Assembly: GCA_002699585.1 (NCBI GenBank)
Contig: PABP01000032.1
Location: 14,636-78,635, forward strand
Direction: 5' to 3'
Length of the DNA: 64,000 nucleotides
Origin: Anaerolineaceae bacterium
GTDB taxonomy: Bacteria; Chloroflexota; Anaerolineae; Aggregatilineales; Phototrophicaceae
This document shows, one piece after another, positions 9,617 through 55,829 of the stretch. The translations under genes and the position numbers were made by a program. Under the pieces are notes generated by a model that did no database searches, had not been told where the DNA came from, and saw nothing but the letters and a program-made list of their open reading frames with translations. Within the stretch, counting starts at the first letter, position 1. Every line of letters starts with the position of its first letter.

Positions 9617-9655
9617 TAAAACACTATGTGATATTTGCACTCGTATTCTTACCTT

Positions 9656-22871: not shown

Positions 22872-22895
22872 TCGATGGATCGAGGAGCAAAACAC

Positions 22896-33618: not shown

Positions 33619-33898
33619 CTTTATTATCGTAAATCAAGGGGCATCACGGGCTGTAGGATTACAGTTTTAGTCTGTCAAAAATACGGTTTCTCCAGATTGG
33701 CGCTAACTAGCAGGTTTTGTGAGAAATATAGTCCTTTGCACCAAAATAACCTGTGCAAAACATCAGATTTATCCCCGTGTGATCACAAAAAATAGGTTAG
33801 AGTATAATTCTAGTGAAGTTAATACTTGTAAATTCAAGCTAAACCCGATGTCTATCTGAGACAATATTGGGTATTCTGAGAGTGAGTAAAATATACTT
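33619..33898. promoter_or_regulatory. intergenic control region with inverted repeat and -10 element; candidate oriT
   Basis: This divergent region separates the relaxase operon (minus) from the helicase operon (plus). An inverted repeat TTTGCAC (33735-33741) / GTGCAAA (33753-33759) with an 11-base spacer could be an operator or part of oriT. TATAAT at 33803-33808 is a perfect -10 box, about 95 bases before the helicase ATG; a good -35 is not seen. The nick site cannot be identified from sequence alone. Confidence 0.45.
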
Positions 33899-36800
33899 AT
33901 GACCAATAATTATGAATGGCTTGTCGATCAAATTTTGGATCACCCGACATGGAATGAACCTGTGCGTGTTGAGCGGGTTAAGCAGATGGGTATTCATCTC
34001 TCCCTTCGTGTTGTCGGGATAGAGACGAATCAGTATCGAACTGCTGTGCTGACCGTTGCTGAGGTTGATCAGATCGCGGGCAAAGGGATTGTGAATAACG
34101 AATTACTCTCCGGTGACCCAACCCAATTTCGACTGGCTTCAGAGGCAAAACGCATCCATCTTGCTTATTTGTATGATCCACTTTTCGCAGTCAGCATGTC
34201 GCAAATTGATCCATTACCACATCAGCTTGAGGCTGTTTATAAATATATGCTTCCTCAACCGAATCTGCGCTTCATGCTCGCAGATGATCCTGGTGCGGGA
34301 AAGACAATTATGGCAGGGTTACTACTCAAAGAACTCAAGCTACGTGGGGTGTTGAAACGGACGCTAATCGTGACACCTGGTGGATTATGGGTTCAATGGA
34401 GACGAGAATTACAAGAGAAGTTCAGTGAACACTTTGATCGTATGGATCGTGGCTTTCACTCCTCGTTGGGGTCTGGACGTGCATGGAATGTGTATTCACA
34501 GGTGATTACGTCTATCGACTTTGCCAAACAACCCGATATTCTGGAAAGTCTGTCGATAGCAGATCGTTGGGATTTAGTCATTGTCGATGAGTGTCATAAA
34601 ATGAGCGCCTACCGACGTGGACCAACTAAGGTGGAACGTAGTCAACGATACCGACTAGGGGAATTATTAGCAGACAAAGCAGACCGCCTGTTATTGTTGA
34701 CGGCAACACCTCATAAAGGCGATGCAGAAAATTTCCGCTTTTTGCTCTCATTGCTTGACCCCGATTTGTTTGCTGATCGGGATGTGCTTCAACGAGCAGT
34801 CCAACGGCAGGAAAACCCTATCTTCTTGCGGCGATTGAAAGAACACATGCGCGGATTTGATGGTAAACCATTGTTTCCTCCACGCAAAGCAGTTACACCG
34901 AAATTTCGCTTAAGTCAGGCAGAAAGCCAGCTCTATGATGCTGTGACTCATTATGTTCAGCATAATTTCAATCTGGCGATGGAGTCAGAAAACAGGAATG
35001 TGACGTTTGCGCTCATTATTTTGCAACGTCGCCTGGCATCGAGTTTGAATGCTATCCTGAAATCGCTTCAGAAACGTCATGCGCGTTTGGCTGAGCTATA
35101 TCGGATTGTCACCGCTGACCCAGAGATATTGGAAAAACAGGCGCAAGATCGGGTAGATGATCCTGAGAATGCTGAGAGCGATACAGAACGTGAAGCCAGC
35201 GAAGAGCAGGTGTTGCGTTATACCGTTGCTCGAAATCTGGAAGAACTTGAAGCTGAGATTATTGAATTAGAAAAGCTCATCAAACTGGCTGAGCAGGTGA
35301 AAGCCAGTGGCGAGGAAACCAAACTCACAGAACTCCAGAAGGTGATGGCAAACGAACATATACGTGATACTGGCGAGAAATTGCTCGTTTTCACCGAGGC
35401 AAAAGACACACTGGATTATCTCGTGGATAACTTCCGGCAGTGGGGCTATCGGACTACATTCATTGATGGTTCAATACCAACCGATGAGCGAGTTATACGA
35501 GAAAAAGAATTTAAGAATACCGCACAGATTATGGTAGCTACTGATGCTGCCAGTGAAGGCATTAACCTGCAATTCTGCCACCTTATGGTGAATTATGATG
35601 TGCCCTGGAATCCGACGCGCCTAGAACAGCGACTGGGGCGCATCCACCGCTATGGACAGGAGACTGAAGTCTTCATGTACAATCTGGTCGCAGAAGGCAC
35701 ACGCGAAGGCGATGTTCTGCGGGCTGTTCTGGATAAACTGAAGAAAATGTCAGAAGGCATGGGTGGTGATCGTGTCTTTGATGTCATCGACCTCATGCTA
35801 GAAGACGTAAACCTCGAAGACCTTATTGTTGAAGCGGTGACACAACGACAACAATTCAGCGATATTCTGGCTCGATTGGACAGAAAACTAGACGAAGAAC
35901 AACAACAAGCTCGCCTACAGGAATTGACGTTAGAAGCGCTATCGACGGAATATGTCGATGTACAGGGCATGGCGCTTCAGAAACGGGTGGCAAGCGAGAA
36001 TCGACTCGCACCAGCCTTTATTCGGTCGTTTTTCCTAAAGGCAATGGAGGCAATCTGGCCCGGACGACTTGACCAGCGAGCAGATGGCTTTTATCGTATT
36101 CGCGCTGTACCTCGTGACCTACAAACTGTGCCTGATGAGCTAACCACACGCTACGGAACAGTTCGTGAAACCTATAACATCATCATCTTTAACAAAGAAG
36201 AGGTAAAACAACACGATACCGGAGAGTTTGTCGGGCCAGGACATCCGCTGTTTGAGGCAGTCAGTTATCATGTCATGCAACGATTTGGCGCAATGTTGAA
36301 AAACGGTGCTGTCTTTACTGATCCCGATGGCTCATATCATGGATTGATCTGGTTAGTGGAAGGTACAATTCAAGATGGCATGAGTAACATCGCTGGACGC
36401 AAATTATCGGCGGTGTATCAACCATTGGATGGCGGACTACGCCAGCAGATTCATCCGGGACAGTTGCTGGACTTTGCGCCTATTGAGGGAACTGTGCAAT
36501 TGCCACATGGCACAGAGGCGCTGGTTGAAAGCGAAGATGATCTTCTGGGATGGTATGTTGGTGATGTGCTGACCGACTACTTCGCAGAATTGCAGGAAAA
36601 CCGTGATCGTGAAGGTGAGATTGTTGAGCGGTATCTCAAACAGTCTTTTCGGTCATTGATGGCGCGTAGCCAGGGAATGCTCACCGAATACTATGAAAAA
36701 TCCGCAACGGGCAAAGACATGCGCCTCAAGATTCATGAAGAAGAAACGCGCTTCAAAGACCTGCAACGCCGCGAAAAAGAACGCATGATACAGGTTGAAC

Positions 36801-37291
36801 GGGAAAGATCGTTGACGATTGCCGAACCTGAGATTGTCGGATTTGCGCTGATACTCACCGAAGCACCTGATGTCGACACGACCACCACAGCCACCGGTGA
36901 GATGATGCGACGTGATGACGAAGTAGAGCACGGGGCGATTGAGGCAGTGCTGGCGTATGAGGCACAACGTGGCTGGATAGCGGAAGACATCAGCCATGAA
37001 AAACGACCATGGGATGTAACCAGCATTAGTCCCGATGGTGACCAGATCCGATATATTGAGGTAAAAGGACGGGCAGGGGAGGGTGTAGCAGAAATGGGCG
37101 AACGCGAATGGTTGTTTGCCGAGAACCACCCTGAAGAATCATGGCTGTACGTGGTGAGCTATGCCAAAACGAATCCGCAGATTTACACCGTTCCTAACCC
37201 TGCAAATCGTTTGAACCGCGAAGAGGTGCTGATTCGTAACCGTTATCAGGTCTCTGTGGACGGTTGGAAGCGTGCCGCAGTGAAGGAATAA
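33899..37291 (+). CDS. SNF2-type helicase with DUF3883-like C-terminus (defence operon)
   Basis: A 1130-residue superfamily 2 ATPase of the SNF2 group: Walker A DDPGAGKTIMAG (~residues 128-139), DEAH-type box VDECHK (~residue 229), motif III LTATPHKGD, motifs V/VI ATDAASEGINLQFCH and RLEQRLGRIHRYGQ. A coiled-coil insert is present around residues 395-475. The end (~residues 1030-1115: WDVTSISPDGDQIRYIEVKG, EWLFAENHPEESWLYVV) matches DUF3883, often found on defence helicases. First gene of a three-gene operon with a DUF1156 methylase and a DUF499 ATPase. In BREX type 3 a comparable helicase is called BrxHII (from memory). Confidence 0.85.
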   Translation: MTNNYEWLVDQILDHPTWNEPVRVERVKQMGIHLSLRVVGIETNQYRTAVLTVAEVDQIAGKGIVNNELLSGDPTQFRLASEAKRIHLAYLYDPLFAVSMSQIDPLPHQLEAVYKYMLPQPNLRFMLADDPGAGKTIMAGLLLKELKLRGVLKRTLIVTPGGLWVQWRRELQEKFSEHFDRMDRGFHSSLGSGRAWNVYSQVITSIDFAKQPDILESLSIADRWDLVIVDECHKMSAYRRGPTKVERSQRYRLGELLADKADRLLLLTATPHKGDAENFRFLLSLLDPDLFADRDVLQRAVQRQENPIFLRRLKEHMRGFDGKPLFPPRKAVTPKFRLSQAESQLYDAVTHYVQHNFNLAMESENRNVTFALIILQRRLASSLNAILKSLQKRHARLAELYRIVTADPEILEKQAQDRVDDPENAESDTEREASEEQVLRYTVARNLEELEAEIIELEKLIKLAEQVKASGEETKLTELQKVMANEHIRDTGEKLLVFTEAKDTLDYLVDNFRQWGYRTTFIDGSIPTDERVIREKEFKNTAQIMVATDAASEGINLQFCHLMVNYDVPWNPTRLEQRLGRIHRYGQETEVFMYNLVAEGTREGDVLRAVLDKLKKMSEGMGGDRVFDVIDLMLEDVNLEDLIVEAVTQRQQFSDILARLDRKLDEEQQQARLQELTLEALSTEYVDVQGMALQKRVASENRLAPAFIRSFFLKAMEAIWPGRLDQRADGFYRIRAVPRDLQTVPDELTTRYGTVRETYNIIIFNKEEVKQHDTGEFVGPGHPLFEAVSYHVMQRFGAMLKNGAVFTDPDGSYHGLIWLVEGTIQDGMSNIAGRKLSAVYQPLDGGLRQQIHPGQLLDFAPIEGTVQLPHGTEALVESEDDLLGWYVGDVLTDYFAELQENRDREGEIVERYLKQSFRSLMARSQGMLTEYYEKSATGKDMRLKIHEEETRFKDLQRREKERMIQVERERSLTIAEPEIVGFALILTEAPDVDTTTTATGEMMRRDDEVEHGAIEAVLAYEAQRGWIAEDISHEKRPWDVTSISPDGDQIRYIEVKGRAGEGVAEMGEREWLFAENHPEESWLYVVSYAKTNPQIYTVPNPANRLNREEVLIRNRYQVSVDGWKRAAVKE

Positions 37292-37405
37292 GTCGCACAA
37301 ACCTGTTAAGATACAGTGCGCCAGAAGAACGACTTAACGTTAAATACAACCAGCTCACCACGCTTAATACTGCGGGGGCTGATGCGACTGAGAAAGCAGA
37401 TTTTT

Positions 37406-40258
37406 ATGACAGAACAACACGACCGCCGTTTAATTGAAGATTCGCTGCCGCTGGAAGCGATTAGCTTCCAGAGTGCGCGAGAAAAAAGCATCCGGCATGG
37501 GCACATTAGCACACTGCACATCTGGTGGGCGAGGCGACCACTGGCGGCGATGCGAGCGGCGATTTTTGCGGCATTGATGCCAGCCCCAGAGAATGAGGAA
37601 GAGCGTGAGCAGATGCACCGCCTGATTGGTGGGACTTATAACGCTAAAACAGAAAAGTGGGAGGGCGGTATCTGTGATTGGGATAGCGTGAAGGATGGCA
37701 ACAGTGAGGTCATTCAACAAGCACAGGCGCTAATCCGTAAGCACTACCCGGATGCGCCACCCAAGGTGCTTGATCCCTTCATGGGTGGGGGCAGTACGGG
37801 CTTAGAGGCGCTACGGCTGGGTGCGGAGGCGCACGGTGTGGAACTGAACCCGGTGGCGCACATCATTGAGCTGTGTACGCTGGTTTACCCACAGAAATAT
37901 GGGCAGAAGATCACCCGTGTGGAGTACGAGGCACGCCCCGGAACCCTGCCGCCAGTGGAACACATGGCGGCTTATGTGGATGACGAGTATGATGCGAACG
38001 ACGACAGTGACCCCGAACAGCAGTCCTTCGATTTCGACATTGACGAGATGGTGAATCCGCTGGCTGAGGATGTTAAACGGTGGGGGCATTGGGTACGCCA
38101 GAGAGCATATGAAGAAATCGGGACTCTGTATAAGACGACGGAAAACCGTCATGTTGCGGCATATCTTTGGGCACGGACGATTACCTGTCATAACCCGCAA
38201 TGCAAAGCAAAAATGCCATTATTGCGTCAATATTGGCTGGCACGTACAAAATCGAAAAGACTGTCTCTCAAACCGATTGTAGACACGCAAAATAAAACTA
38301 TAGAGTTTACTGTCGTTGAAAATAATGAAATAGATTTTGATCCAACAAATGGAACGATGAAGTCTGGTTCGGTTACCTGCCTCGTTTGTAACACTTCCGC
38401 AGATGGTTCGTATATCCGTGAGGAAGCTGTCGCAGAAAGAATGGGACAGATGCTTATTGGAGTTGTAGAAGTATCAGAAGATGAAACAGGTAAATTTTAT
38501 CGTTCCCCTACCGAGCAAGATTTAGATAATTATCATACGGCAACACAACAGCTTGAGGCTTTTATAGACCAGAATCCTGACTCCGTTATGGTGGGACAGA
38601 TCAGTGATATACGTCCATCATCCAACGCACGTGGCATATCTGGTTTAACAAGGTATGGGATTCTTAACTTTAATGAGCTTTACAATAACAGGCAAATGCT
38701 TGTTTTGCAGAAATTTGGAGAAATCATCAGTGAGGCAGCGCAAAAGATAGAGGAAATTTATGCCGATCAGGAATATGCTAAGGCTGTAGCTACGTATCTG
38801 TCACTAGCACTTGATAAAGTTGCTGATTACAACAGTCGAGTGTCAACATGGGATAGTACACGTGAATCTATGCGTAACACTTTTCCCCGGCAAGCTATTC
38901 AAATGGTTTGGGATTATGCGGAGTCAAATCCTTTTAGTGGTTCATCGGGAGACTGGAGTAACGCCTTCAATTGGATTGAACGAACCATTATTCATACGTC
39001 TCTTGCATCTGATAATCCTGCAAAGCTAATAAACGGAGACGCCACTCGATTACCCTATAACGATGAATACAGATTGAATGCAGTCATTACAGATCCCCCA
39101 TACTACGATTCAGTGCCATACGCAGACTTAGCTGACTTCTTTTACACCGTGCTGCGTAGTAGTTTAACGGAGTTGTATCCTGATCAATTTGTTACACCAC
39201 TAACCCCAAAATCGTCAGAAATCATTGAACATGCACGTCGGGGTGATGAAGCCCAAAACTTTTACGAAAAGCAGATGACAAAGGCTTTTAGTGAAGCTAA
39301 TCGCGTGTTAGATACACATGGGGTGATGGCAGTTGTGTTTGCCCACACTTCTACCACTGCTTGGGAAACTTTACTAAACAGTCTTCTATCTGCAGGACTC
39401 GTCGTGACTGCATCGTGGCCATTACATACTGAAATGTCAACAAGACTGCGTGCAAGAGGCAACGCTTCCCTTGCATCCTCCATTTTTATTGTATGTCGTA
39501 AGCGCGTTGCAGAAACCGACGGCATTTACGACGATGTGCGCCCACTCATGAAAGCACGCATCAAAGAACGTCTGGACTATTTTTGGAAGCAAGGCATTCG
39601 CGGTGCAGATTTCTTCATTAGTGCCATTGGTCCCGCCGTCGAGGTATTCGGGCAGTACAAAACAGTTCGTAAACTCAGCGGTGATGTAGTCACGGTGGCA
39701 GAACTGCTCGACATCGTACAGCAAGAAGTCGCGGACTATGCGCTGTCTCAGGTAATGAATGGAGGAGCCGCCTTCGGTCCCTTCGATGCACCCACGCGCT
39801 TCTATATCATGTATCGCTGGTCATATGGCAAGAACAAGATTGAATTCGATGACGGGATGCGTCTGGCGATGGCTCTAGGTGCAGAAGTGGATTTACTCAT
39901 GCATGTCAGTAGTGTGCTTAAAAAGAGCGGTAGCAGTGTCAACTTGTTGAGTCCTTATGAGCGTGAAGATAATGAAAAACTGGGCGAACCGGCACGAGAT
40001 CGCATGTCAGCACCGCTGATTGATATGGTGCATCGGGCGGCATTGCTCTGGCGTGCAGGGAAGCGCGATGAACTGACACGCTTTGTCAGTATCAATGTTG
40101 GAACGCGGGTAGAGGCTCTGCGGGCAGTAGCACAGGCGCTGATTAACGTCTTGCCGGATGGCGACAAAGAAAAACAGCTCTATGAGGGCTTCTTGCAGGG
40201 TGAACTACCCACCGCGCCCACCAGCAACAAAATGTTTAGCGATGAAGACTTTAGTTAG
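37406..40258 (+). CDS. DUF1156-type adenine-specific DNA methyltransferase (PglX-like)
   Basis: 950 residues from the ATG at 37406, chosen because RRLIEDSLPLEAISFQSARE is the normal DUF1156 start; a longer frame from 37316 adds 30 residues of no homology. DUF1156 occupies ~1-70 (EKSIRHGHISTLHIWWARRP). SAM motif I is DPFMGGGSTGLEAL (~residue 123) and catalytic motif IV DPPYYDSVPY is at ~563. A CHNPQCKAKM...CLVCNTS zinc-ribbon-like insert is present. DPPY implies N6-adenine methylation. It resembles the PglXI methylase of BREX type 3, and would mark self DNA. Confidence 0.88.
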   Translation: MTEQHDRRLIEDSLPLEAISFQSAREKSIRHGHISTLHIWWARRPLAAMRAAIFAALMPAPENEEEREQMHRLIGGTYNAKTEKWEGGICDWDSVKDGNSEVIQQAQALIRKHYPDAPPKVLDPFMGGGSTGLEALRLGAEAHGVELNPVAHIIELCTLVYPQKYGQKITRVEYEARPGTLPPVEHMAAYVDDEYDANDDSDPEQQSFDFDIDEMVNPLAEDVKRWGHWVRQRAYEEIGTLYKTTENRHVAAYLWARTITCHNPQCKAKMPLLRQYWLARTKSKRLSLKPIVDTQNKTIEFTVVENNEIDFDPTNGTMKSGSVTCLVCNTSADGSYIREEAVAERMGQMLIGVVEVSEDETGKFYRSPTEQDLDNYHTATQQLEAFIDQNPDSVMVGQISDIRPSSNARGISGLTRYGILNFNELYNNRQMLVLQKFGEIISEAAQKIEEIYADQEYAKAVATYLSLALDKVADYNSRVSTWDSTRESMRNTFPRQAIQMVWDYAESNPFSGSSGDWSNAFNWIERTIIHTSLASDNPAKLINGDATRLPYNDEYRLNAVITDPPYYDSVPYADLADFFYTVLRSSLTELYPDQFVTPLTPKSSEIIEHARRGDEAQNFYEKQMTKAFSEANRVLDTHGVMAVVFAHTSTTAWETLLNSLLSAGLVVTASWPLHTEMSTRLRARGNASLASSIFIVCRKRVAETDGIYDDVRPLMKARIKERLDYFWKQGIRGADFFISAIGPAVEVFGQYKTVRKLSGDVVTVAELLDIVQQEVADYALSQVMNGGAAFGPFDAPTRFYIMYRWSYGKNKIEFDDGMRLAMALGAEVDLLMHVSSVLKKSGSSVNLLSPYEREDNEKLGEPARDRMSAPLIDMVHRAALLWRAGKRDELTRFVSINVGTRVEALRAVAQALINVLPDGDKEKQLYEGFLQGELPTAPTSNKMFSDEDFS

Positions 40259-40269
40259 GAATTAGTCCG

Positions 40270-43200
40270 ATGACAGTAGACTATCAACGTGAACTCCGCG
40301 ATGCGAAAAAGCTGCTCGAAGGCGAGATGTATAAGCAGGCACTCAAGACTGTAGGCGATGCTCAGGAGCATGTTCTGCGTGATTTGCTATTTGAGCTATA
40401 CAACAATGGCAACAAGGGCGACAAAACGTATCTGGAGCAGGTCATCGGGCGAGTAGCAAGCAACAAAACAGCTGAACAGCTCACTACTTATGAGATGGTG
40501 AATGTCTTTCAAGAGCGCGGCGTGATGGAGCTGGTCGAGAAATTGCCGAATGTCAGCACGCGCTTTTTCTCGGTGGATGCGCTGGATCAACTACGCCGTA
40601 TTCGCAATGACAGCACCCATAAAGATTATCAACCGTCCCAGCAGGAGGCGGCTTATGTGATTTCACAGTTTGAGTTGTTCCTGATAGAAACCGGACGTAT
40701 CCCACGTCCGAAAGTTTCACCGACAGCATCGGGTCCGCTCAAGCCCTGGATTGAAGTTGCAACGCCACATCGTGACATCCGTGAAGGCAATTTTGATTTG
40801 AACGTCTTCGCGGCTGATCTGGGCATGGTTCAACAGAACAAAGCCAAAGATGAATATCAAGATCCCGAAATATTTTTCTCACGGACATATCTCACACGCG
40901 GTCTGCGCCTTCAACTTCAGAACATGATGCGCCGTTTGTCAGGTGAGTCAGGTACAAACGCGGTTATCAATCTATTCACAACATTTGGTGGCGGTAAGAC
41001 GCATACCATGCTGGCGATGTTGCATCTGGCCAAGCACCATGTACAGCTTGCGCGCAAGTTCCCGGAGGTAGCAAGTCTGGTACAGAAAGCTGAGATCAAG
41101 AACGCACCAGAAAGTGTGAGTGTCGCCATTATTGATGGCACAGCATTGACCCCTGCAAAACCACGTCGTCCAGAACGGGGTGTTACCCTGCACACGCTGT
41201 GGGGAGAGATTGCTTATCAGCTCGGCGGTACAGAACTGTATGACGTGATCCGCGAATTGGATGAGAGTAAGGGGGCGCCCGGTGCATCCGAACTCACCGA
41301 TTTACTGGCATTGGCTGGACCTTCGCTAATTCTCATTGATGAAACACTGGAATACTCTACAAAAGCCTCTGCTGTAAAGGTCGGTAAAGGCTATCTGGTA
41401 GATCAGATGCATGCCTTTTTCAAGGCACTCAGTCAGGCTGTGGGCAATCGTCCTGATTGTCTACTGGTGATGACTCTCACAAGTAGTCGTCAAGAACAAT
41501 TTGGCGATCAAGCTGCTGAACTGTATGAAACTCTAGAACGTATTCTGGAACGTGTTGAAAGCACAGAAGTTGTCGCAGAGAATATTGAAATCTACGAGAT
41601 TTTGCGTCGGCGGTTGTTCGAGACTGTTGGCGATGAGACCTATCACGAACAATTGGCGCAGATTTTCTCTGACGAGTTGTACCGTAAGAACCCTGATCTG
41701 TTCCCGGAAAAAGCTGTACATCCAGAATATCGACAGGCGATGATTCGCTCATATCCGTTCCATCCCGAATTAGTAGACATCATGCGTGATCGGTGGGGCA
41801 CCATTGCTGGCTTCCAAAAAACCCGCGGTGTCTTACGCTTCATGGCGCTTGTCGTCAGTAGCCTGTATATGAACCGACATCATGAAATTGTCATCAAACC
41901 GAGCGATGTACCATTAGGTGACTCCCGTGTCCGACAGGAGTTGCTGGGCCATGTGGACAGTCCCGGCGGTTATGAAGCCGCGATTATCTCTGACATCGCT
42001 GGCAAGAATGATTCAAAAGCATTAGCTGTCGATTCAATGAGTGGTGGTGATTATCAACGATATGGTGTGGCAGAAGGCTTGGCAACATCTGTCTTTCTAT
42101 ATTCACACTCCGGTGGTGAGAACCGCCCAACAGCATCACAACCGCAAATGTGGCTATCATCTCTGGAACCAACGATTGTTCCAGCGCTGGCATCCGATGC
42201 TCTGGATAAATTAGAACGTCGCTTGTTCTACCTGGTGCGTGAAGGTACTCAATATTATCTGTCAGTTACGCCAAACCTGAATAAAATGCTGGTTGAACGC
42301 ATTGATGCTGTTAAGCGTGACACGGCTAGTGTGCAGAAAGTCATCCTTGATGAAATTCAGTTTATGGTAGGACGGGGACGTTTTGTACGGGTTTTCGTCT
42401 GGCCAGACGGACCGCGTGATGTAGACGATAATCGTGGTTTAAAACTAGTCATCGCCCCACTTGAGCAACACTGGCATCCCAATGATGACAATGAAACCCG
42501 TCTTGAGACAGAGGGCTACATTGACAATATTCGCACTAATGCGACGGGTACATATCGCCAGTTCAGCAATACCGTGGTATTTCTGCTACCCACGCACATC
42601 GGTGTACAAAATATCCGGGCGGCAGCTGTAAAGCGCTTGGCACTAGAAGAAATCAGTAAGACAGCACGCCACAAACTCAACGATTCTCAGCGTGAAGAAT
42701 TTGAGGACCAATACGCCAAGTCACAGCAAGACTTGCCTGCCGCCATCTGGGGAGCTTACACAGTTATAGTCGCCCCTGACGCTAATCGTACTCTCTGGAT
42801 AAGAGAAGAATTTGCAAAGGGTGGCTATCAGAAAGGGCAGAACACTCTGAGTGGGCGGGTCTGGAATAAACTTAACAGTGAAGAACGATTGCTGGAAAGA
42901 CTCGATCCAATGTTCCTTCAACTACGTTCTAATGATCGATGGGCGAATATCTGGCCTGAAGGCGAGCCTATTCTAAAAGTGGATCGGTTGCGTGACTACT
43001 TTGCAAGATATGATTATCTACCTATTCTGGCTGGTGATGATGTACTCAGTCAAACCATTGCATTCGGTGTACAGCGTGGTTTGTTTGCTTACGGACTTGG
43101 AGATGGGGAAAATCTGGATTTCGACACCCTGTACTTCAATGAACAACGTTCATCCAATGATTTCCTGATTACCGAGAGCGCGTGGTTAGTAAGTAGTTCG

Positions 43201-43596
43201 TTGGCAACTGAGTTGATGACACCTGATGAGACTCAATATCCTGATATAGCGCAACCAACAGCTACAATAAATGGGGATGGGGAAAATCTATCACTGCATA
43301 CACCCCCTATCACATCACCATCGTCAGCACCTACTTTTCAGCCATCGTCTACTCCTGAGCCACCGACTCATACTTATAGAAACCTGCAAATTGAGACAGG
43401 TCTGGATGATATGCAATGGTTGGCATTTTACCGTAGTGTGATTCAACCACTTGTTGAAGCAGGAGCTGATGTCGATATTCAACTGACTATTCGTGCGTCA
43501 AAACGCGACGGGATAGATGCAAATTTCATTGATTTACGTATCAAAGAGAGTGCACTACAAATCGGACGTAATGCAAGAGTTGATACTGAGGAGTAG
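40270..43596 (+). CDS. DUF499 P-loop ATPase (BrxC/PglY-like)
   Basis: An 1108-residue protein. The N-terminal ~140 residues form an extra helical domain (LLEGEMYKQALKTVGDAQEH, QLRRIRNDSTHKDYQPSQQE) that looks like a HEPN/DUF4145-type module (the RNDxTH segment is suggestive). The DUF499 ATPase follows: Walker A TFGGGKTHTM (~residues 238-247), Walker B LILIDETLEY (~353). A Pro/Ser linker near 1020-1045 leads to a C-terminal domain. It starts 11 bp after the methylase stop. Large ATPases of this type are core partners of DUF1156 methylases in BREX-like systems. A structured RNA region begins 35 bp after its stop on the same strand. Confidence 0.85.
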   Translation: MTVDYQRELRDAKKLLEGEMYKQALKTVGDAQEHVLRDLLFELYNNGNKGDKTYLEQVIGRVASNKTAEQLTTYEMVNVFQERGVMELVEKLPNVSTRFFSVDALDQLRRIRNDSTHKDYQPSQQEAAYVISQFELFLIETGRIPRPKVSPTASGPLKPWIEVATPHRDIREGNFDLNVFAADLGMVQQNKAKDEYQDPEIFFSRTYLTRGLRLQLQNMMRRLSGESGTNAVINLFTTFGGGKTHTMLAMLHLAKHHVQLARKFPEVASLVQKAEIKNAPESVSVAIIDGTALTPAKPRRPERGVTLHTLWGEIAYQLGGTELYDVIRELDESKGAPGASELTDLLALAGPSLILIDETLEYSTKASAVKVGKGYLVDQMHAFFKALSQAVGNRPDCLLVMTLTSSRQEQFGDQAAELYETLERILERVESTEVVAENIEIYEILRRRLFETVGDETYHEQLAQIFSDELYRKNPDLFPEKAVHPEYRQAMIRSYPFHPELVDIMRDRWGTIAGFQKTRGVLRFMALVVSSLYMNRHHEIVIKPSDVPLGDSRVRQELLGHVDSPGGYEAAIISDIAGKNDSKALAVDSMSGGDYQRYGVAEGLATSVFLYSHSGGENRPTASQPQMWLSSLEPTIVPALASDALDKLERRLFYLVREGTQYYLSVTPNLNKMLVERIDAVKRDTASVQKVILDEIQFMVGRGRFVRVFVWPDGPRDVDDNRGLKLVIAPLEQHWHPNDDNETRLETEGYIDNIRTNATGTYRQFSNTVVFLLPTHIGVQNIRAAAVKRLALEEISKTARHKLNDSQREEFEDQYAKSQQDLPAAIWGAYTVIVAPDANRTLWIREEFAKGGYQKGQNTLSGRVWNKLNSEERLLERLDPMFLQLRSNDRWANIWPEGEPILKVDRLRDYFARYDYLPILAGDDVLSQTIAFGVQRGLFAYGLGDGENLDFDTLYFNEQRSSNDFLITESAWLVSSSLATELMTPDETQYPDIAQPTATINGDGENLSLHTPPITSPSSAPTFQPSSTPEPPTHTYRNLQIETGLDDMQWLAFYRSVIQPLVEAGADVDIQLTIRASKRDGIDANFIDLRIKESALQIGRNARVDTEE

Positions 43597-43630
43597 GGCA
43601 ATCACAAGTAGTGTTACACCCACAGGGTGA

Positions 43631-44110
43631 TGCTTTTGCTTTTGAGTTTATGTTTGCTAATGGCAAACATGAACGGCGTTGAAGCATGACAAATGCTATC
43701 AACGCATCGAACACACAGTAGGTGTGTTCGGTGGGCGTGGTTTACCACGTCCACAGGCTGACCAGCACGCAGTAGCATGGTCAGCGGTGCGTCACGTGAG
43801 CGTGGCGCACCAGCCCCTCCGGCACATGAGGAGCCAGCGTTTTAGCTGGCGACGCATCTCAGCCCGTCATACACGCTCACACGAGGTATGACCTGAGACA
43901 GCCATAAACGTGTCCGACGGACAATCGTTTAAGCTGAGATGCGTTCGGCGTCCGTAGGACGCGGCACTGCTGCCATGCAGTGCCAACGGCGATACCACAT
44001 CCACGATGTACGTATCGCCGCAAAAGCGCAAGGACTTTCCGACAAGATATATTGTTGGGAAATGAAGAGAGTCGGGGAGTTGCCAACCAAAAAAAGAGGC
44101 GGCACTCTCA
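43631..44110 (+). ncRNA. candidate large ornate structured RNA (region 1)
   Basis: Nearly every base can be placed in a helix. In order: 43650-43657/43663-43670; 43676-43682/43699-43705; 43708-43716/43722-43730; 43731-43740/43745-43754; 43757-43764/43778-43785; 43786-43796/43801-43811; 43833-43838/43845-43850; long-range 43851-43862/43934-43945 enclosing 43866-43872/43886-43892 and 43906-43915/43919-43930; 43948-43953/43957-43962; 43963-43970/43977-43984; 43987-43995/44012-44020 with inner 43997-44001/44005-44009; 44067-44072/44104-44109. Three helices contain G.U pairs that form only on the plus strand (43735.43750, 43792.43805, 43851.43945). No protein frame is convincing. It may be cotranscribed with the DUF499 gene. 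The family is not recognised. Confidence 0.75.
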
Positions 44111-44149
44111 TGAATACCACCTCAAAAGGGATGTTATGCGGAGTCAAAC

Positions 44150-44527
44150 TTAGAAGGGAATTTGTTCTTCGGGGTTAGCTTCGGTTTCGCCATTTTCGAC
44201 ACGTTCCAAGAGGATCAAACGATCAACATCCATATCGAGACTGGCTTGAGGATTGCCGTTTTGGTCGACCCATGCACTCGGACGCAACCAACTTCCTGTA
44301 ACCTGGACAATGCCTCCGCGTTTCACGTAGCTGTTAGCCACCGATGAGAGCTTATCCCAGCAATTCACACGCACCCAGAGGGTTTGTTGCTGTCCACCAC
44401 CATTGGTGCGATTGACTGCGATAGAGAAGGATGCGACTTGTTTTTCACCAGTGCTGGTTTGTACGGTGCGGATTTGAGCGTCATTCCCAACGTGTCCGGT
44501 CAGTGTGATACCAATATGAGTTCCCAT
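44150..44527 (-). CDS. ssb: single-stranded DNA-binding protein
   Basis: A 125-residue OB-fold SSB: GIIQVTGSWLRPSAW-like and ITLTGHVGNDAQIRTVQTST segments, SFSIAVNRTNGG and LWVRVNCWDKLSSV are typical of strands 1-4. The C-terminus ends NPEEQIPF, an acidic tip with the terminal Pro-Phe that recruits partner proteins. AGGAGG lies 6 bases before the ATG. The protein is shorter than chromosomal SSB (about 150-180) but complete, and probably serves element replication and transfer. Confidence 0.92.
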   Translation of the reverse strand: MGTHIGITLTGHVGNDAQIRTVQTSTGEKQVASFSIAVNRTNGGGQQQTLWVRVNCWDKLSSVANSYVKRGGIVQVTGSWLRPSAWVDQNGNPQASLDMDVDRLILLERVENGETEANPEEQIPF

Positions 44528-44561
44528 TTGAACCTCCTGCGCGTTTTGCGCTTATCTGTTT

Positions 44562-45150
44562 AATCAGCCCGATGCTGATTTCTTGACCTGCCAGAAGCGG
44601 GCGAATCAGTCAGATTTCATCCGTAGGACGCTACCCGTTTTTGTTGAGAGAAACGGCACAAGCCAGACAAAAACGGGTAAAGCGAAATTCTCTCAGAATT
44701 TTGAAAGATGACGCGCCTGCTAGCATGGGCAAATGTAAATCAGCTCTTCATGGCGCTGAATAACACAGGAGATGAGCGCCACGCCAGAGAGGGAAAGGTG
44801 AGGATTGTTATCTACCATAAACCGGATCGGGAAGCATGTTGCATAGTTACCGTCAGACAGACGAAAAACAGGGTGATATCAATCCCCAGAGGCTCTGCCA
44901 GATGAGAGGCACAACTAACAACTCAGGATATGAATAGATGCTGGCAAGACACATCGGGGATTAGCAGAAATGCGAATAGGGCAGTCAGGAATACGAAGGT
45001 TGCCTGTGCATCAGGTTGAACATACCCTCAAACAGATTGGCATTGGTGTATCGTCATACTGAAGACGAGGATGAAACGATCTGACCCGAAAGTCATTCTA
45101 TGACTTCCAATAACAGCCTATGGTGGTGATGAGTGTTCTTGGCAATAGGC
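44562..45150 (+). ncRNA. candidate structured RNA region 3 with pseudoknotted hairpin domain
   Basis: A gene-free stretch upstream of ssb. The core domain is 44620-44695: mini-hairpin TCC-GTA-GGA (44620-44628); stem CGCT+ACCCGTTTTTGT (44629-44644) pairing with ACAAAAACGGGT+AGCG (44667-44684); apical GGC-ACAA-GCC (44655-44664); and loop TGAGAGAA (44645-44652) pairing with TTCTCTCA (44688-44695), which makes an H-type pseudoknot. Other hairpins: 44562-44568/44574-44580, TGGCGCT/AGCGCCA near 44750-44780, GTAT-CGTC-ATAC near 45047-45058, and AAGTCAT/ATGACTT near 45089-45106. The core domain recurs at 59087-59156. Outer limits are uncertain. Confidence 0.6.
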
Positions 45151-45154
45151 AATC

Positions 45155-45790
45155 TCACACACGATCTTGCTCAGAAGGGAAGTGCGTATCGCTAAAGTTA
45201 AACATATTCGGGCGCTTGCTGTGACGCAAGCCTTCATGTAAAGCACCGGTGATCCGCCGTATACCGTGCTGTAGTTTCTCACGGATATAAGACTGGTTGC
45301 CATCACTGAGTAGTTGAACTGCTGTCTGTGTCAGATAATCAGCCGCCGACAATAAATCATACGCCATCCGTCCACGCCAGCCATGTACAGCATTCGCACA
45401 AGAAACAGCGGCGCGTAACGTATCAGCAGATTCATATGCTTTCAACAGACATTTGGCAGTCATCTGAAAATCGTCAGCCCGTGTGTCGGCTGATTGTTGA
45501 TAAATCAGCAAGTAATTGTAGATCATGTCGATAGCAACAATGCTGACAGCGTTTTGTCCACAAATCGTCGCCAATTTGATCCAGGCATCCGCATAATGGC
45601 TATGTTGGCAGAGAGATAAAGCCGTGTCCGTGATCATGTTGCATATGTCTGACACCCGCATCGAATCACGTTCCGTGCGTAAACCAATCGCCAATTGAGC
45701 CGCGATTGCCTGATAGTGCTGATTGTTGAAAAGGCTGTTGTAACGGGCGAGAGCCTGTGTGTTGTCGTGAAGCATAAGATTTCTCCTCAA
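45155..45790 (-). CDS. helical hypothetical protein
   Basis: A 211-residue, mostly alpha-helical protein with repeated helix pairs (HYADAWIKLATICGQNAVSI, LLKAYESADTLRAAVSCANA, DLLSAADYLTQTAVQLLSDG) that look like a degenerate solenoid. No signal or membrane segment. Family not recognised. A Rho-independent terminator-like hairpin lies just upstream of its start (45806-45837), so it may be expressed from its own promoter or by readthrough. Last protein of the PRTRC-region cluster before ssb. Confidence 0.55.
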   Translation of the reverse strand: MRRNLMLHDNTQALARYNSLFNNQHYQAIAAQLAIGLRTERDSMRVSDICNMITDTALSLCQHSHYADAWIKLATICGQNAVSIVAIDMIYNYLLIYQQSADTRADDFQMTAKCLLKAYESADTLRAAVSCANAVHGWRGRMAYDLLSAADYLTQTAVQLLSDGNQSYIREKLQHGIRRITGALHEGLRHSKRPNMFNFSDTHFPSEQDRV

Positions 45791-46391: not shown

Positions 46392-47402
46392 CTACCAGGG
46401 TAAGGTGAGTTGTACGGGTGATATAGGCTTTGTCGCTATTTTGACCGAAGCTTGTGGGGCTGTCTGACGCAGTTGTGTCCATCGCTGGCGTTGTTCGTCT
46501 GACAACAAATCGGGTTGCATCTCAGCCAACCAGCGTCCCTGCTGGAAGCTGAAGCCACTGGTCAATTCCAGCTCAACCAGATCACGATAGTGGTCGGGAT
46601 TCCAGAGAATGCCATTACGTAAATCGTTCTGATTGGCAAGGACACACAGCCGACACGAACAGCGATCATTTCCGAGTGCATAAACTGGATTGGCATGGTA
46701 GTTCCAAGTTTTGAGAAGTGCATATAAGCCTTCACGATCACCGGGTTGAATGTTCGCTTTAACCTCAGATCGTAGGGCTTCTAATCGCTCCAACGTCCAT
46801 CCTAGCGTAGACCACACATCGGATAAACTGAATTCATGAATGGGCAACCAGCGATTAACATGCCGATTCTTCGTCGGTGCAGTAGGAGATTGGGTGTAGG
46901 CTTGCACGACCTGCTTATGCTTTCTGGCAGGTGATTCATCCGCTCGAATCCCGATGCAGGACAGGATTAGAGCATCTTGCGGGTAGTGTTTGACGATGAA
47001 TTTATTGACCTGTGCTTCCTTCTGCGCCTTTGTACAAAATCGTGCTGATGCCGATGACCAGGGCGGTACACGATCTGCACGACCTTCCTGTTGTAAGGTG
47101 CGATAGCGTGTCCACCATTGATCGACTAAATCACCTTGTTCACGCCGGATGACTTCGACCTGTTTGCCAGTGGTTTCAGACACAAATTTCTGAATATGTG
47201 GCAAAGAGAAATCCCATTCATTACGCTGTAGATCACAGGTCACTACTCGAAAATCGCCACGCCAGCCATGCAGGGTATAGGCATCCCAGAGCAATTTCAG
47301 CATAGCATCAGAATCTTTGCCGCCACTGACATTGACCAGCACATGAGCACCCTGTTCCAATAACTCACGGATTGTCTGTGGGATCTGCAAATGACGTGCC
47401 AT
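46392..47402 (-). CDS. PP-loop ATP pyrophosphatase, PAPS-reductase/DndC-like
   Basis: A 336-residue protein. The PP-loop SGGKDSDAML (~residues 25-34) binds ATP and is typical of the adenine-nucleotide alpha-hydrolase fold. Cysteines RFCTKAQK (~residue 122) and CSCRLC (~residues 244-249) could hold an iron-sulfur cluster, as in DndC and CysH relatives. Its start overlaps the stop of the ThiF-like gene by one base. Members of this group reduce PAPS or insert sulfur into nucleic acids. Given an E1-like enzyme and a small Gly-ending partner in the same operon, a sulfur-transfer or adenylylation role is more attractive than sulfate reduction (inference). Confidence 0.8.
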   Translation of the reverse strand: MARHLQIPQTIRELLEQGAHVLVNVSGGKDSDAMLKLLWDAYTLHGWRGDFRVVTCDLQRNEWDFSLPHIQKFVSETTGKQVEVIRREQGDLVDQWWTRYRTLQQEGRADRVPPWSSASARFCTKAQKEAQVNKFIVKHYPQDALILSCIGIRADESPARKHKQVVQAYTQSPTAPTKNRHVNRWLPIHEFSLSDVWSTLGWTLERLEALRSEVKANIQPGDREGLYALLKTWNYHANPVYALGNDRCSCRLCVLANQNDLRNGILWNPDHYRDLVELELTSGFSFQQGRWLAEMQPDLLSDEQRQRWTQLRQTAPQASVKIATKPISPVQLTLPW

Positions 47403-48187
47403 CAGCTTGCTCCCAGATAGACTTCCAATTCCTGACGATTAATGATTTTGCTTTGCAACACAAAATCATCGGCGTTAAGAAAAGACAAAAAGCTTGTAAT
47501 GGGTTGCCTGTGCAAAAACTTGTAGATATAGCTACCCATAACGCTTGCCATCCAATCATTGATGAGCAAGTGCTGACTGCCTTCCATGACCAATTCAGCA
47601 CATGAAGCATTTGTCATCACTGTCGGACGTTCAGCTACAGGTTCGGGTTCGAGCAGTTCAGGGAAGAGCAAGCCTTCTTTCGGCAGATAGGCATACTTAC
47701 CATCACGTCCATCCAGATTGCGGCGCATCTGCTCAGGGTCGTCACAGTTACCAATACAAATTTGACCGGAATTTTCATGGTTACCGCCCCCCAAAATGAC
47801 ACCATTGATCTGGTGGATTGCCTGTCGTGCTTCGTGGTTATCGACACAGCTAATCACCAGATTGGAACCGTAACGTTCAAAGTGGCGGACAGGATCAACG
47901 TAATCCGGAATCCAGCGTACATCCAAACCCAATGCCAGATTAAGCATTTTGCCCGCAGTTTCTGCCTTGTTTTTGCCGAGCATCGACGGTGAGAAAAGTT
48001 GCCGTCCGACATTTTGCTCTTCAACCGTATCGGGATCAATCAGGACAATTTGTGGGGTGTGTTTGCGCGAACGCTGCATGTCATACACAATCCGCCCTAC
48101 GATACGAGCGACCTGTGCGCCAGTACCACCAATCCCGACAATCGTGATCGTCTTGATGTATAAATTGGGATCAAATACACCACTCAT
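47402..48187 (-). CDS. PRTRC system ThiF-family (E1-like) protein
   Basis: A 261-residue E1-like adenylating enzyme. The nucleotide-binding glycine motif TIVGIGGTGAQVARIVGRIV is at ~residues 14-33. DPDTVEEQNVGRQLFSP (~52-68) is the Asp/Asn/Arg/Gln motif that binds ATP and matches PRTRC ThiF proteins. SCVDN follows, and TNASCAEL offers a candidate catalytic Cys. E1-like enzymes adenylate the C-terminal Gly of a small partner. The gene overlaps both neighbours (protein B start and the PP-loop gene), implying tight coupling. Confidence 0.85.
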   Translation of the reverse strand: MSGVFDPNLYIKTITIVGIGGTGAQVARIVGRIVYDMQRSRKHTPQIVLIDPDTVEEQNVGRQLFSPSMLGKNKAETAGKMLNLALGLDVRWIPDYVDPVRHFERYGSNLVISCVDNHEARQAIHQINGVILGGGNHENSGQICIGNCDDPEQMRRNLDGRDGKYAYLPKEGLLFPELLEPEPVAERPTVMTNASCAELVMEGSQHLLINDWMASVMGSYIYKFLHRQPITSFLSFLNADDFVLQSKIINRQELEVYLGAS

Positions 48188-48888
48188 GATTTGTCCCCCA
48201 ATACTTGTGCCAATGTTTTGTTAGCTGGAATCAAATCAGAGGTCGGATAGCGACGAGAATCCTTTTGTTCCAATTCAATCAACTTTTTGCGAATATCCTG
48301 CGGAAAACTGGCAGATTTTCCTGAAACTGCGTGGTCGCCAAAGGGAGACCCTAAGAGCATTGCCCAATCTTCAGCCAGCGATGCACCAGATAGGGCAGTG
48401 CCCGACACACGTTGCACTGTTCCCCAGCAAATTGAGCCAGAGTTAAAAACATTCGGTAAGGGTGCTTGAAAGAGCGTGACATCCAGTGATTTGGGTTTGC
48501 GCTTCACAGCATAGACAGCGTAATTCGGGTTGCGATCTTCACTCGTCGTGCGAATCATCAAAAGTGGTGGTAGGGGAATTCGTAGTGCGGTTTCCGAACC
48601 TTCCAGATAGATTCCCGTTTTCTGCCCTTTACGGTATTCGACGACAGTTTTCTTAACACCTTCGGTGCGAATCAACAGGGTATCACCAGATAGCAGACCT
48701 GTATCGAATGTCACTTTGGCTGCCAAAGCAACTGCCACCTGCGCCGGTTCCACAGCATATTCCGTGAGCATGTCGCCTTCACGCTTGCGGAGCATCACGC
48801 CATAACTGTAGAAATCAAGCGATAAGCTCGGCTCTTCGTTCAATGCTGTCTGTAAGACACGGCCATGCCAGTCGTATGCGGGGTTCAT
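48184..48888 (-). CDS. PRTRC system protein B
   Basis: A 234-residue protein. The central part LRIPLPPLLMIRTTSEDRNP, NYAVYAVKRKPKSLDVTLFQAPLPNVF and SGSICWGTVQ matches the PRTRC-B pattern (PLPPL, YVFA, RP, APLPNV, G-x-I/V-CWG). I recall PRTRC-B being considered a divergent E2-like protein; I cannot verify this here. It overlaps the upstream 286-residue gene by 74 bp and the ThiF gene by 4 bp. Confidence 0.75.
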   Translation of the reverse strand: MNPAYDWHGRVLQTALNEEPSLSLDFYSYGVMLRKREGDMLTEYAVEPAQVAVALAAKVTFDTGLLSGDTLLIRTEGVKKTVVEYRKGQKTGIYLEGSETALRIPLPPLLMIRTTSEDRNPNYAVYAVKRKPKSLDVTLFQAPLPNVFNSGSICWGTVQRVSGTALSGASLAEDWAMLLGSPFGDHAVSGKSASFPQDIRKKLIELEQKDSRRYPTSDLIPANKTLAQVLGDKS

Positions 48889-49675
48889 CTTTTTTGCCTT
48901 TCAATTTATCAAGTGCTTTGTAGATACGTTGGATGTTGCGTTCTAATGCTGTGAGCAGGTTGGGCTGGCTACTCAGAAATTCAAGTCCCGCTAGCACGTC
49001 GGACATGATGCCCTCAGCTTCTTCAATAATGTCCATTGCGAATGCTAGTTCATCTTTTTCCCACGATAGGGGTTGAAATTCACAAAGTTCCTCGTAGGAG
49101 AGGTCTATGCTGGAATTTCCAGAAGCTGACCAGAGCCATTGCATCAGCCATGAGATTTGCCGATAGCGTTCATCGGGATGTTTTTCCAGATCAGCAGCGA
49201 TATAACGTCCTGCGGTGTAAACGCAGTCGGGGATCGTCATGTGATAGGGATTTGGTTCGGGAGAAATACCAAAACATGCCAGAATGGGAATGAGTTCGGG
49301 ATGGCTTGTATAGAAGTCAGCGTCATTTAGTTCGACACCGTAGGCAGGCATCGGCACACCAAATCCAATCCATTCCAGATTGTCCAGTGGAATGCCTCGT
49401 TCCGTGATGCCATCACAAATCAAACGATCAATATCGGTATAGGACGCACCTTGCCGGATTGCCTCAACTGCCTGCCTGTAGATATCGGGAAATGCTTTGC
49501 GTGTGACTGTCAGCGCGATACCGATTGTGCCATCTTCGTCGTGAGGCACATCCCAATCTTCATCGGCATCCTGCCACATGGGATCCAACCAGACGACAGC
49601 ACTTGCCAGACAGAATTGAGGGTCTGCCCGCAGTCCTGCTGCGAGCAAGGTATAGCTTTGTAATAAATCGTTCAT
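48815..49675 (-). CDS. PRTRC-cluster protein, F-like by position
   Basis: A 286-residue acidic protein (start MNDLLQSYTLLAAGLRADPQ). Trp/Asp-rich segments (VVWLDPMWQDADEDWDVPHD, WLMQWLWSASGNSSIDLSYE) show no catalytic motif known to me. Its place between protein C and protein B is where PRTRC protein F occurs in other clusters; identity by sequence is not secure. It overlaps the next gene by 74 bp. Confidence 0.5.
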   Translation of the reverse strand: MNDLLQSYTLLAAGLRADPQFCLASAVVWLDPMWQDADEDWDVPHDEDGTIGIALTVTRKAFPDIYRQAVEAIRQGASYTDIDRLICDGITERGIPLDNLEWIGFGVPMPAYGVELNDADFYTSHPELIPILACFGISPEPNPYHMTIPDCVYTAGRYIAADLEKHPDERYRQISWLMQWLWSASGNSSIDLSYEELCEFQPLSWEKDELAFAMDIIEEAEGIMSDVLAGLEFLSSQPNLLTALERNIQRIYKALDKLKGKKDEPRIRLAWPCLTDSIERRAELIA

Positions 49676-51792: not shown

Positions 51793-54700
51793 TTAGAACA
51801 TTGCTAGCTGGGTGGGCAATTCTTCCTCTGTGCTTTGTTTCCGCACTAAAGGGCGCTTTGGGACAGATACCTCAGTTGGCTCATCTCCCGGAATTGCCAT
51901 CAGGTCGATTTTTCCACGCTTCCGCTTCTTGTCTGACTGCCGTGATGTGTGCTTTGCGGATGCCTGTAGTTCTTCATCTTGCATATCCTGTAACTTCTCG
52001 AAGATGCCGAGCTTGATGGGGGTGAGTCCCAACGCCTGTTTCGCCAGATCAACAATGGTCGCGGCGCTTTCGTCCTCACAACCCATGAAAACAAAGCGAT
52101 GTTGTTTCAGCCAGCCACGAACATGGCGTACCATACTCTCTTCGTGAACCGGATACTGACTAAAGTCCGGGTCGCGCATCCCAATGACTTTGTAAGTTTC
52201 ATCATCATTTTGCACACCATCGGTCAGGATCGTTAGCAGTTTTGCCTGTAACTTCGCCCGTTTCTTGTCGTCATGAATCAGGTGTACGGTATCCAGATAA
52301 CGTGTGACATATCGATGCAATTTGCCTGTCCCATCTGAGGACTTAGCGACAATTTCTCGAATTGGAGACGTATCTTCTTCAACCAGAACACCACCGAGTT
52401 CAATCGCAACCTGCACCAGTGGATCATCCTGGGTTACGGTGATTTCAGGCTCATCGTCTGCGACTTCGACATTCCAGTACGCCATATCTTCGGCATCAAT
52501 TTCACTCTGTCCCGCACTGACCTTGAACATCTCACTGGGATCGAGCAAGGCTTCTTCTTTGGCAATGGCATTCAACAAGGCTTCCTCAAACCCAGATTCC
52601 TGTTCCGTCAGGGCATCCAGACCTGTTAAACCCACATCACCGGTGAGCAATTTCGCGGCACGTTGTTTACGACTCATGAGCTGGACAGCTGTATGCTCCA
52701 TCGTCCCTTCCGCAAAAATGTAGTAGGTCTTACATTGCTCATGGGTCTGATTCAAGCGATAGGCGCGGGCGGCAGCTTGCATCATTGTCCCCAAGTTGAA
52801 CGTGATCTCGTGAAAGATCAGTGTCGGACTGAACAGCAGGTCGAGGCCAGTTTTGACTAACTCAGGGTTGGTGATGAGCACATTCATGCCTTTGGCACGT
52901 TCCGCTTCTATCACTTTTTCACGGCGCTCGGCACTGATGGTGTTCTTCAGGATGTAAGGCACCGCACCTGGCACATATTGGCGAATCAGCGACTCAATGC
53001 GTGGTTGGATGTCTTTGGTTGCCGTCTGACGCAGATAAACGACACAAGGACGATTGTTCGCCAGTTCTTGCTTGAGCAGGTCAATCAATGCCTGTTCTTT
53101 GGCGTAGACACGATCCTCGCCGTAAGACGGAATTTGTGTGACCATGTGCGGACGCTTTTCACCGGTGATGGGATGTTTGATGTTGTGGATGACCTCTGTA
53201 GGACGAAACGCCGCATTGATCCAGCCCATGCTCCATTGCAGATATGCGCCTCTAAAGGTCGTGTCTCCCTCCCAGCGCCGCTGAATTAAATAATCTTTGA
53301 GCAAGGAACGGGTACGATCATACTGGTCATAGGTGTCGGTATCCATCTCTACCGGAAGTGCAACTTCTTCATAGTCCGGCAAATTTTTACCTAAATCCGC
53401 CAAACTGAAGAAAATCGCATGATCCAGCACCTCAGCCACCAGCAAGGGGGAAATTCCGGGAGCCTCCTGATACGGGCGTTCATAGGTCGATGTACCCGTG
53501 AAAGCACCCGTATTGCTGTCGTAGGTTGGACGTTCTTCGACGACCTGCTCGCGCACGCCCATATCTGAAACCCAGCTTGATTCAGCCCGTCCACGCTGTT
53601 TGCCTGCACCCTCCAGCACACTCTGGAAACGACTTGACCCGCGTTCTTTACGACTCAAACGTTCGGCACCGCCCCAATTGTAACGTTGTCTGACACGCGG
53701 ATTGAGGTGATATTCTATATTGAAAAGCGACGAGGATTTACCGTTGAAGGGTGTACCCGTCATCGCCAGCACCTTCTGCGCCATGCCTGCCAATCTGCCG
53801 AATGACTCACCGTTGCCCGTATCGCCATTCGCCGCCTCGTGGATTTCATCCCAGACCAGCAGATAAACCCGATCTGGATAGACTTTTTTGAGGTATTCAT
53901 CGAGACGATAACGCGGATTCTTGGGGGCATATTTATGTCCGGGTTTCGGACGTGAACCGCGATCCCGTGCGTCTTGCCATAAGGGTGTCTGACAGACGAC
54001 ACAGGCACGTTTGCCCGATTTGAGCCAGCTTTCTGAAGCAGGCACACTGGTTCCCTTACGTTCCTGCATGACGGTACAACCACAATGCGGACATTTTGGC
54101 ACGCGCTGTTTGACGATGCGCTGGTTCGGTTCATAGCCTTCCGGTGTGGGTTGATTGTGTCGCCATAGGGCAACCGGTTCATTGTGCCAGACCACTGCGA
54201 CTTCACGACTGCATCCCAGCTTGGTCAGATCGCGCTTGATGAGACCGATTTTGGGAACACCTGCACCGATCTTTTCAGCGCGGGACATGAAACGCTTGAT
54301 ATCTTCGTGCCTATCCAATCTTTCAACTATGCTGTTTGGATGAATACTGAGCAACTCCCGTTTCCACTTATCAATCAGGTGAGGTGGTGCAACCACAAGA
54401 ACCACTTGATCTGCCCGCATATCATCGGCGATTTTCTGGACTGCACCCGATGCAATAGTGATTGCCACAGTGCCTCCCATCGCCGTTTTGCCCACACCCA
54501 TTTGGCCCACCAGCAGGATGCTATCGCGTTTTTCAAAGCCCTTCGTAATCGCGGCGATGACATGTTTTTGGGCAGCGTAGAGCGGATATTTGCCCTTTAA
54601 CTTGACTCTATCCAGAAAACGGCGGAGACCATTCATGTCGAACTGATAGGCTGGCGAGAACTTGTTGTTCAGGTAATTCGCCAGTACCTTCTTGTTGCTG

Positions 54701-55776: not shown

Positions 55777-55797
55777 GTTACAGTCCTTTCCAGAATC

Positions 55798-55829
55798 AAA
55801 AACAGCCACCTGCATTGAACACGTGGCTG
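55798..55829 (-). terminator. hairpin plus T-run ahead of the methylase-helicase gene
   Basis: On the minus strand CAGCCAC (55829-55823) pairs with GTGGCTG (55809-55803), followed by TTTTT (55802-55798). It sits between the end of the 617-residue gene and the real start of the methylase-helicase gene. It is a good intrinsic terminator or attenuator and argues against the ATG at 55815 as start. Confidence 0.75.

Follow-up and report, generated by a model that had tools for sequence, protein, structure and literature searches.

An array of about 15 helices, 330-400 bases long, folds on the plus strand of a gene-free region beside a defence operon in an Anaerolineaceae genome, and we read it as a cis-acting, strand-specific single-stranded DNA origin element, of the oriT or sso type, acting on the T-strand of an ICE-like conjugative element (probability roughly 0.55). 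In the 64,000-nucleotide stretch that was analysed (the window), the array occupies 43705-44032 of the plus strand, plus two 5' hairpins from 43646. It is a real, conserved structure under selection, its polarity is that of the plus strand, and it is linked with, and antisense to, a relaxase-like gene; in many copies an ssb or ParM-like module lies on its other side. The array is apparently undescribed: no description of it appears in the titles and abstract openings of the listed open-access papers on ICE RNAs, Anaerolineae relaxases, Chloroflexi RNAs, STAXI and oriT models.

Folded with RNA energy parameters, the plus strand of 43597-44140 reached -263 kcal/mol (z -13.55), and none of 100 dinucleotide shuffles folded as well. 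The initial annotation had drawn some 15 helices by eye, and the minimum-free-energy (MFE) structure bears this out, with 14 helices between 43708 and 44020, 11 of which have 6-14 pairs. The 12-bp long-range helix that it described is present with 13 pairs, one of them G-U, at coordinates right to within a base, and its observation of G-U pairs in three helices of the plus strand agrees with the MFE structure of the window copy (3/14 helices). The minus strand of the array region gave z -11.1. DNA parameters gave z -12.8 for the plus strand, with helices nearly the same as in the RNA fold up to 44032; from 44033 on the two folds part. A helix pairing 43633-43644 with 44021-44032 closes the domain in the window copy, the part conserved among homologues begins near 43705, and unrelated hairpins take the place of the two 5' hairpins in L006 and L007 (Table 1). 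Among the window's open reading frames, none of at least 100 aa overlaps the array. A plus-strand open frame of 70 codons (~43679-43891) runs across it, with related short frames in 9 of 63 contexts (cluster K16); it is probably a by-product of the conserved sequence, any coding being only putative.

Table 1. Positions in the window of the array, its parts and the neighbouring genes.
Feature	Position	Strand	Basis or remark
VirD4-type coupling protein	29432-31429	-	Pfam T4SS-DNA_transf 7.2e-32
K1, compact relaxase-like protein	32564-33235	-	invariant His132, HxH 150-152, Tyr14, Tyr35
K2, ribbon-helix-helix-like	33226-33618	-	76% identical to L025 K2 over 118 aa
Short block upstream of K2, weakly conserved	33619-33700		inverted repeat CTGTA...TACAG 33651-33664
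Hma defence system, cargo between K2 and array	33899-43596	+	HmaA helicase, HmaB methylase, HmaC ATPase
Two extra 5' hairpins (43646-43674, 43676-43705)	43646-43705	+	MFE; differ in L006, L007
Conserved structured array	43705-44032	+	MFE; covariation, 6 full-length homologues
Hairpins H3, H4, H5, H6	43708-43730, 43731-43754, 43757-43785, 43786-43811	+	MFE
Core covered by covariance model R1 (H4-H8)	43722-43851	+	R1 matches, covariation
H7-H8 pair	43814-43851	+	most conserved loops (about GGCGNNTGA and NTTTA), compensating stems
Hairpins H7, H8	43816-43831, 43833-43850	+	MFE
Long-range helix with inner hairpins	43851-43863/43933-43945	+	MFE
3' part of array	43948-43962, 43963-43984, 43987-44020	+	MFE
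Terminator-like hairpin and T run, 3' of ssb	44096-44123	-	
ssb, single-strand binding protein	44150-44527	-	Pfam SSB 4.8e-16; convergent with array

A DNA search of 98 genomes of the family returned strong matches, the best outside the window's own genome showing 84% identity over query bases 109-544; in the closest copies homology spans 43705-44686, comprising the array, the convergent ssb gene and the region upstream of ssb. The core alignment (A3; 21 copies, 33 pairs), on which covariance model R1 is based, was made by MAFFT without structure, and the structure was drawn by hand from the same sequences. It holds 21 of the 30 copies of alignment A2, the other nine (L026, L029, L033, L034, L023, L043, L030, L024 and L042) being absent also from the strand count given below. 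In one of these, L029, about 580 bases (9453-10037) separate the inner from the 3' part of the array, where ~80 are expected; this is likely an insertion.

Checking for homologues with significant covariation had been set down beforehand, and such homologues were found. In A3, 97.3% of cells are paired, both sides have changed in 16 of the 33 pairs (0/500 shuffles as good), and pairing falls to 24-47% when partners are slid by 1-3 columns. Double changes occur in 30/33 pairs (302 cells; 0/500 shuffles) across 42 further copies, 41 of them distinct (A4), counts that lean to R1, as the alignment was fitted to that model. Over the whole array, six close full-length copies show double changes in 28 of 115 pairs (0/500 shuffles), and the long-range helix (helix 7 of this alignment) covaries; conservation is lowest in helices 8-12, the hairpins inside the long-range domain, with 61-90% of cells paired. 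R1 matched 33 of the 98 family genomes at E 1e-3 and 43 of 154 genomes of the order at E 1e-5, the latter with at least 145 copies, and these counts are lower bounds because 35, 22 and 8 candidates per genome were scored in the genome searches, under strict filters. In a 400-genome sample of the phylum the window's own genome was the sole match, in a search that weak copies outside the order may escape. A DNA search of plasmid and phage records at E 0.001 gave no array match, and none was confirmed in viral contigs.

Sixty-three contexts, out of ~145 copies, were read for their neighbouring genes. Mostly on the left stand the commonest neighbours, a primase/helicase-type cluster (K0), K1, the ribbon-helix-helix (RHH)-like K2 and the coupling-protein cluster K4; those on the right are ssb (K6), which adjoins the array in several homologues, or a ParM-like/K5 pair. 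The window has the type 1 layout, which runs VirD4, K1, K2, array, ssb and PRTRC-like genes, while type 2 runs RepB-type primase, K1, K2, an HU-like gene, array, K5 and ParM-like. In G012, G015 and G026 the two types lie next to each other, each having a K1 of its own; these are composite elements with two array-relaxase modules (G012:C6, C14, C25; G015:C327; G026:C212). On the right, every gene of the clusters ssb, o45155, ParM-like, K5, K14 and K15 is on the minus strand, and clusters K7-K10 and K13 are divided 49 minus to 13 plus. G059 holds three array copies inside a single 5.6 Mb contig, pointing to integration. A mobile-element setting had been suggested from the outset, and this stands: it lies on elements with relaxase-like and coupling-protein genes beside it, whose class we infer to be that of ICE-like conjugative elements, with no ICE integrase or ends identified. 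The window also contains, by ssb, a block (46392-49675) of a PAPS-reductase-like gene, ThiF, Prok-E2_D, weakly matched by PRTRC_B, and genes linked with them that recurs in many elements, a 1340-aa DUF6094 methyltransferase-helicase fusion (51793-55815) conserved in the element backbone, and a protein with TIR and sulfatase-modifying-factor (FGE) domains (17918-19543), possibly a defence protein.

Cargo separates K1 and K2 from the array by ~10 kb in the window. The domains of this cargo operon are an SNF2 helicase, a DUF1156 methylase (HmaB) and a DUF499 ATPase (HmaC), and its best PADLOC models are HmaA (2.5e-218), HmaB (2.4e-140) and HmaC (9.3e-161), BrxHI/BrxHII and PglXI being weaker matches only. 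BREX type 3 comprises the set brxF/brxC/pglXI/brxHII/pglZ/brxA. With only three genes, best matched by Hma models, the operon is an Hma (helicase-methylase-ATPase) system and not the BREX-3-like operon it had been taken for. Its BREX-3-like look is accounted for by PMC12839542, which counts such three-part operons centred on DUF499 as relatives of BREX that contain BrxC- and BrxHII-like components. Cargo, with SNF2-type defence genes in several loci, occurs on either side of the array, and for that reason a site-specific, attC-like cargo boundary was considered; this seems less likely, since the copies of the array go with relaxase genes.

This association is close. Of the order's 43 genomes with the array, 41 have K1, as against 9 of the 111 without it (Fisher 4.6e-26, a p-value that overstates independence because the genomes are related), and array and K1 copy numbers per genome correlate with rho 0.85, both among the 41 genomes and over all 154. 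The two array-positive genomes without K1, G016 and G021, are both fragmented. All 45 K1 matches in the 63 contexts (one gene, split between two loci, counted twice) are antisense to the folded strand; K1 lies at most 2.5 kb left of the array in 29 of the 57 contexts with enough flank, and right of it in three subgroup copies (L080, L094, L114).

The compact protein itself matched no Pfam or NCBIfam family, no credible PDB sequence and, at E 0.1, nothing in plasmid records; the window copy of K2 likewise gave no significant Pfam match. Aligned by hhalign with the PF03432 relaxase of G050, K1 matched over its full length at E 0.0025 with a probability of only 12%, and the single-sequence structure model of the window protein was poor (pLDDT 53; best Foldseek E 0.1) and was not used. 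From its motifs and the weak hhalign match we infer that K1 is a compact HUH relaxase. Among 61 family genomes, the standard relaxase models PF03432 and PF03389 found one and two, respectively. The block upstream of K2 aligns weakly (A6; 46% mean column identity) and is a possible operator or oriT-proximal site.

A further 19 K1 loci have no R1 match at E 1e-5, among them L146, with a weak match at 1.9e-4. In six of these, a segment 400-1000 nt upstream of K1 folds at z -4.3 to -12.7, and in the other 13 no upstream segment reaches z -4, a threshold picked after the values had been seen, with 10 shuffles per segment. Of the six, five are array-like hairpin chains, and L148 is a single long inverted repeat; L141, L145 and L146 have an H8-like hairpin with a TTTA loop.

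The pattern of non-canonical pairs identifies the folded strand. A3 has 48 G-U and 6 A-C cells among its 693, so the plus strand is the one that folds; such a bias is not that of duplex DNA or of a minus-strand RNA, and it suits a plus-strand molecule, be it RNA or single-stranded DNA. A4 has 59 G-U and 21 A-C cells, the latter within the range of other mismatches (GG 18, CC 14). The G-U bias could owe something to C-to-T damage on an exposed strand; the compensation could not. The same bias makes it unlikely that the array consists of inverted repeats in double-stranded form to which dimeric proteins (ribbon-helix-helix, HU-like or partition proteins) bind, as the genes for RHH-like and HU-like proteins beside it might suggest: the two strands of a palindrome are equivalent, the hairpin sequences here differ from one another, and the long-range helix covaries. 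Still less credible, and indeed very improbable, is a role as leader or attenuator for the mob operon on the minus strand; the array does lie between minus-strand genes in type-2 loci, but the G-U bias is on the plus strand rather than the mRNA strand, and cargo separates array and operon in several type-1 loci.

The choice is chiefly between single-stranded DNA, which we favour, and RNA. The initial annotation had proposed a selected, ornate plus-strand RNA; its structure and its strand both stand, while RNA is the less likely chemistry, folded single-stranded DNA suiting the array no worse. Energy models do not tell the two apart: 0.70 of the consensus pairs in 63 rows are recovered by DNA parameters and 0.72 by RNA parameters. 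A structured non-coding RNA of the ornate, mobile-element type exemplified by GOLLD, ROOL and OLE, perhaps serving transfer or element control, is possible but distinctly less probable; the covarying helices, the conserved loops and the plus-strand bias would all suit it. So would the excess of GNRA among tetraloops (40/214 vs 6.7 expected), a loop that the RNA energy model may favour, while UNCG is not enriched (2/214 vs 3.3 expected). Of C-G-closed triloops, 21/82 are C[GNA]G; triloops of this type are stable in DNA, as are GNNA loops. Signals for making an RNA are scarce: terminator-like sites were found on the plus strand in 5 of 56 contexts, two of them in the array region (7 sites on the minus strand), and sigma-70-like promoter sites upstream on the plus strand in 2 of 62, against 4.2 expected from mononucleotide shuffles (4 on the minus strand). 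Both tests are weak, because the minus-strand genes must carry such signals, yet these are similarly rare there. An HU-like gene begins next to the array in 14/19 type-2 copies (judged by N-terminal likeness; the one copy tested matches Pfam Bac_DNA_binding at 3.5e-4, 21.2 bits against a cut-off of 22.4), and in 11/19 its start codon, on the opposite strand, is 47-67 nt from the model start, leaving scant room for an array promoter.

Known RNA families do not account for the array. Rfam covariance models at gathering score gave no match in the window, in keeping with the earlier remark that no RNA layout was recognised; four chance-level matches up to E 10 fell in 43400-45200 (best 0.76), and across seven homologous loci the only matches were to group II introns, in L104 and outside the array core. 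These (RF00029 and a D5 family; 10368-10445, minus strand) lie close 3' of the array, where there is also a 596-aa ORF. The suggested kinship with GOLLD or ROOL found no Rfam match to back it.

Under the single-stranded DNA origin reading, K1 would be a working relaxase and the plus strand the T-strand, which would be transferred as single-stranded DNA and fold into a hairpin chain with a long-range domain. The active form would then be this folded DNA, and the step served could be binding and processing by relaxosome proteins, complementary-strand synthesis from a single-strand origin, or both. With the plus strand as T-strand, the array would be among the first parts to reach the recipient, ahead of the genes to its right, and the right-hand minus-strand genes (ssb, o45155, ParM-like, K5, K14, K15) would use the T-strand as template. 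Such an orientation is what PMC11541004 describes for genes of leading regions, and the right-hand minus-strand clusters match that layout. The H7-H8 pair, with its conserved loops, would be the best candidate for a protein-binding or nick site. The inverted repeat at 33651-33664, however, stays with K2 despite the cargo, so nicking may take place there and the array may be a separate single-strand origin.

Covariation this deep is usually read as RNA, and the best fit here may be single-stranded DNA; if so, selection can act on an elaborate fold of transferred DNA. On slightly less than even odds, we tentatively propose a new class, a large ornate single-stranded DNA element that would be the DNA counterpart of ornate RNAs, closely accompanied by an undescribed family of minimal HUH relaxases and occurring across one order of Anaerolineae. 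The array marks an unrecognised relaxase-like family and offers a way into the conjugative elements of this order, few of which standard relaxase models detect; if it were RNA instead, it would be a new ornate RNA class tied to conjugation.

Several known systems resemble the array in part. GOLLD, ROOL and OLE RNAs are like it in size class and helix density, and phages and prophages carry the genes of the first two (PMC12286853); the context of the array is instead a relaxase, not tRNA, and the window contains no tRNA. STAXI (RF01728) is a structured motif near ssb and topoisomerase genes (PMC2864571), for which single-stranded DNA was likewise weighed against RNA, and the window has both ssb and a topoisomerase IA gene (22875-24764). 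STAXI, however, consists of two or three copies of a pseudoknot, in which UUCG loops are frequent (PMC2864571), unlike the array with its lack of UNCG enrichment, and RF01728 exceeded its cut-off in 0/5 genomes. The Frpo/ssi single-stranded DNA promoters share a folded single strand near ssb, but the cited Frpo is upstream of leading-region genes such as ssb (PMC11541004), whereas the array lies on the 3' side of ssb. ICEBs1 sso1, a single-strand origin, is also a strand-specific structure on an ICE; ssos act in one orientation, structure probably mattering for their function no less than sequence, and sso1 has three predicted stem-loops (PMC4595007), against ~15 helices and a long-range domain in the array. 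Like an sso, the array keeps a structure on one strand over its sequence, as its covariation and G-U bias indicate. The oriTs of MOB-type relaxases also have hairpins and lie near relaxase and RHH-like accessory genes, and across contexts the array adjoins a relaxase-like gene and an accessory DNA-binding gene, with cargo intervening in the window; it is much larger than these oriTs, no nic site was found, and K1 falls in no Pfam or NCBIfam family. We know of no sso or oriT as large as the array. The function proposed for it here is one that oriT hairpins and ssos carry out on a smaller scale.
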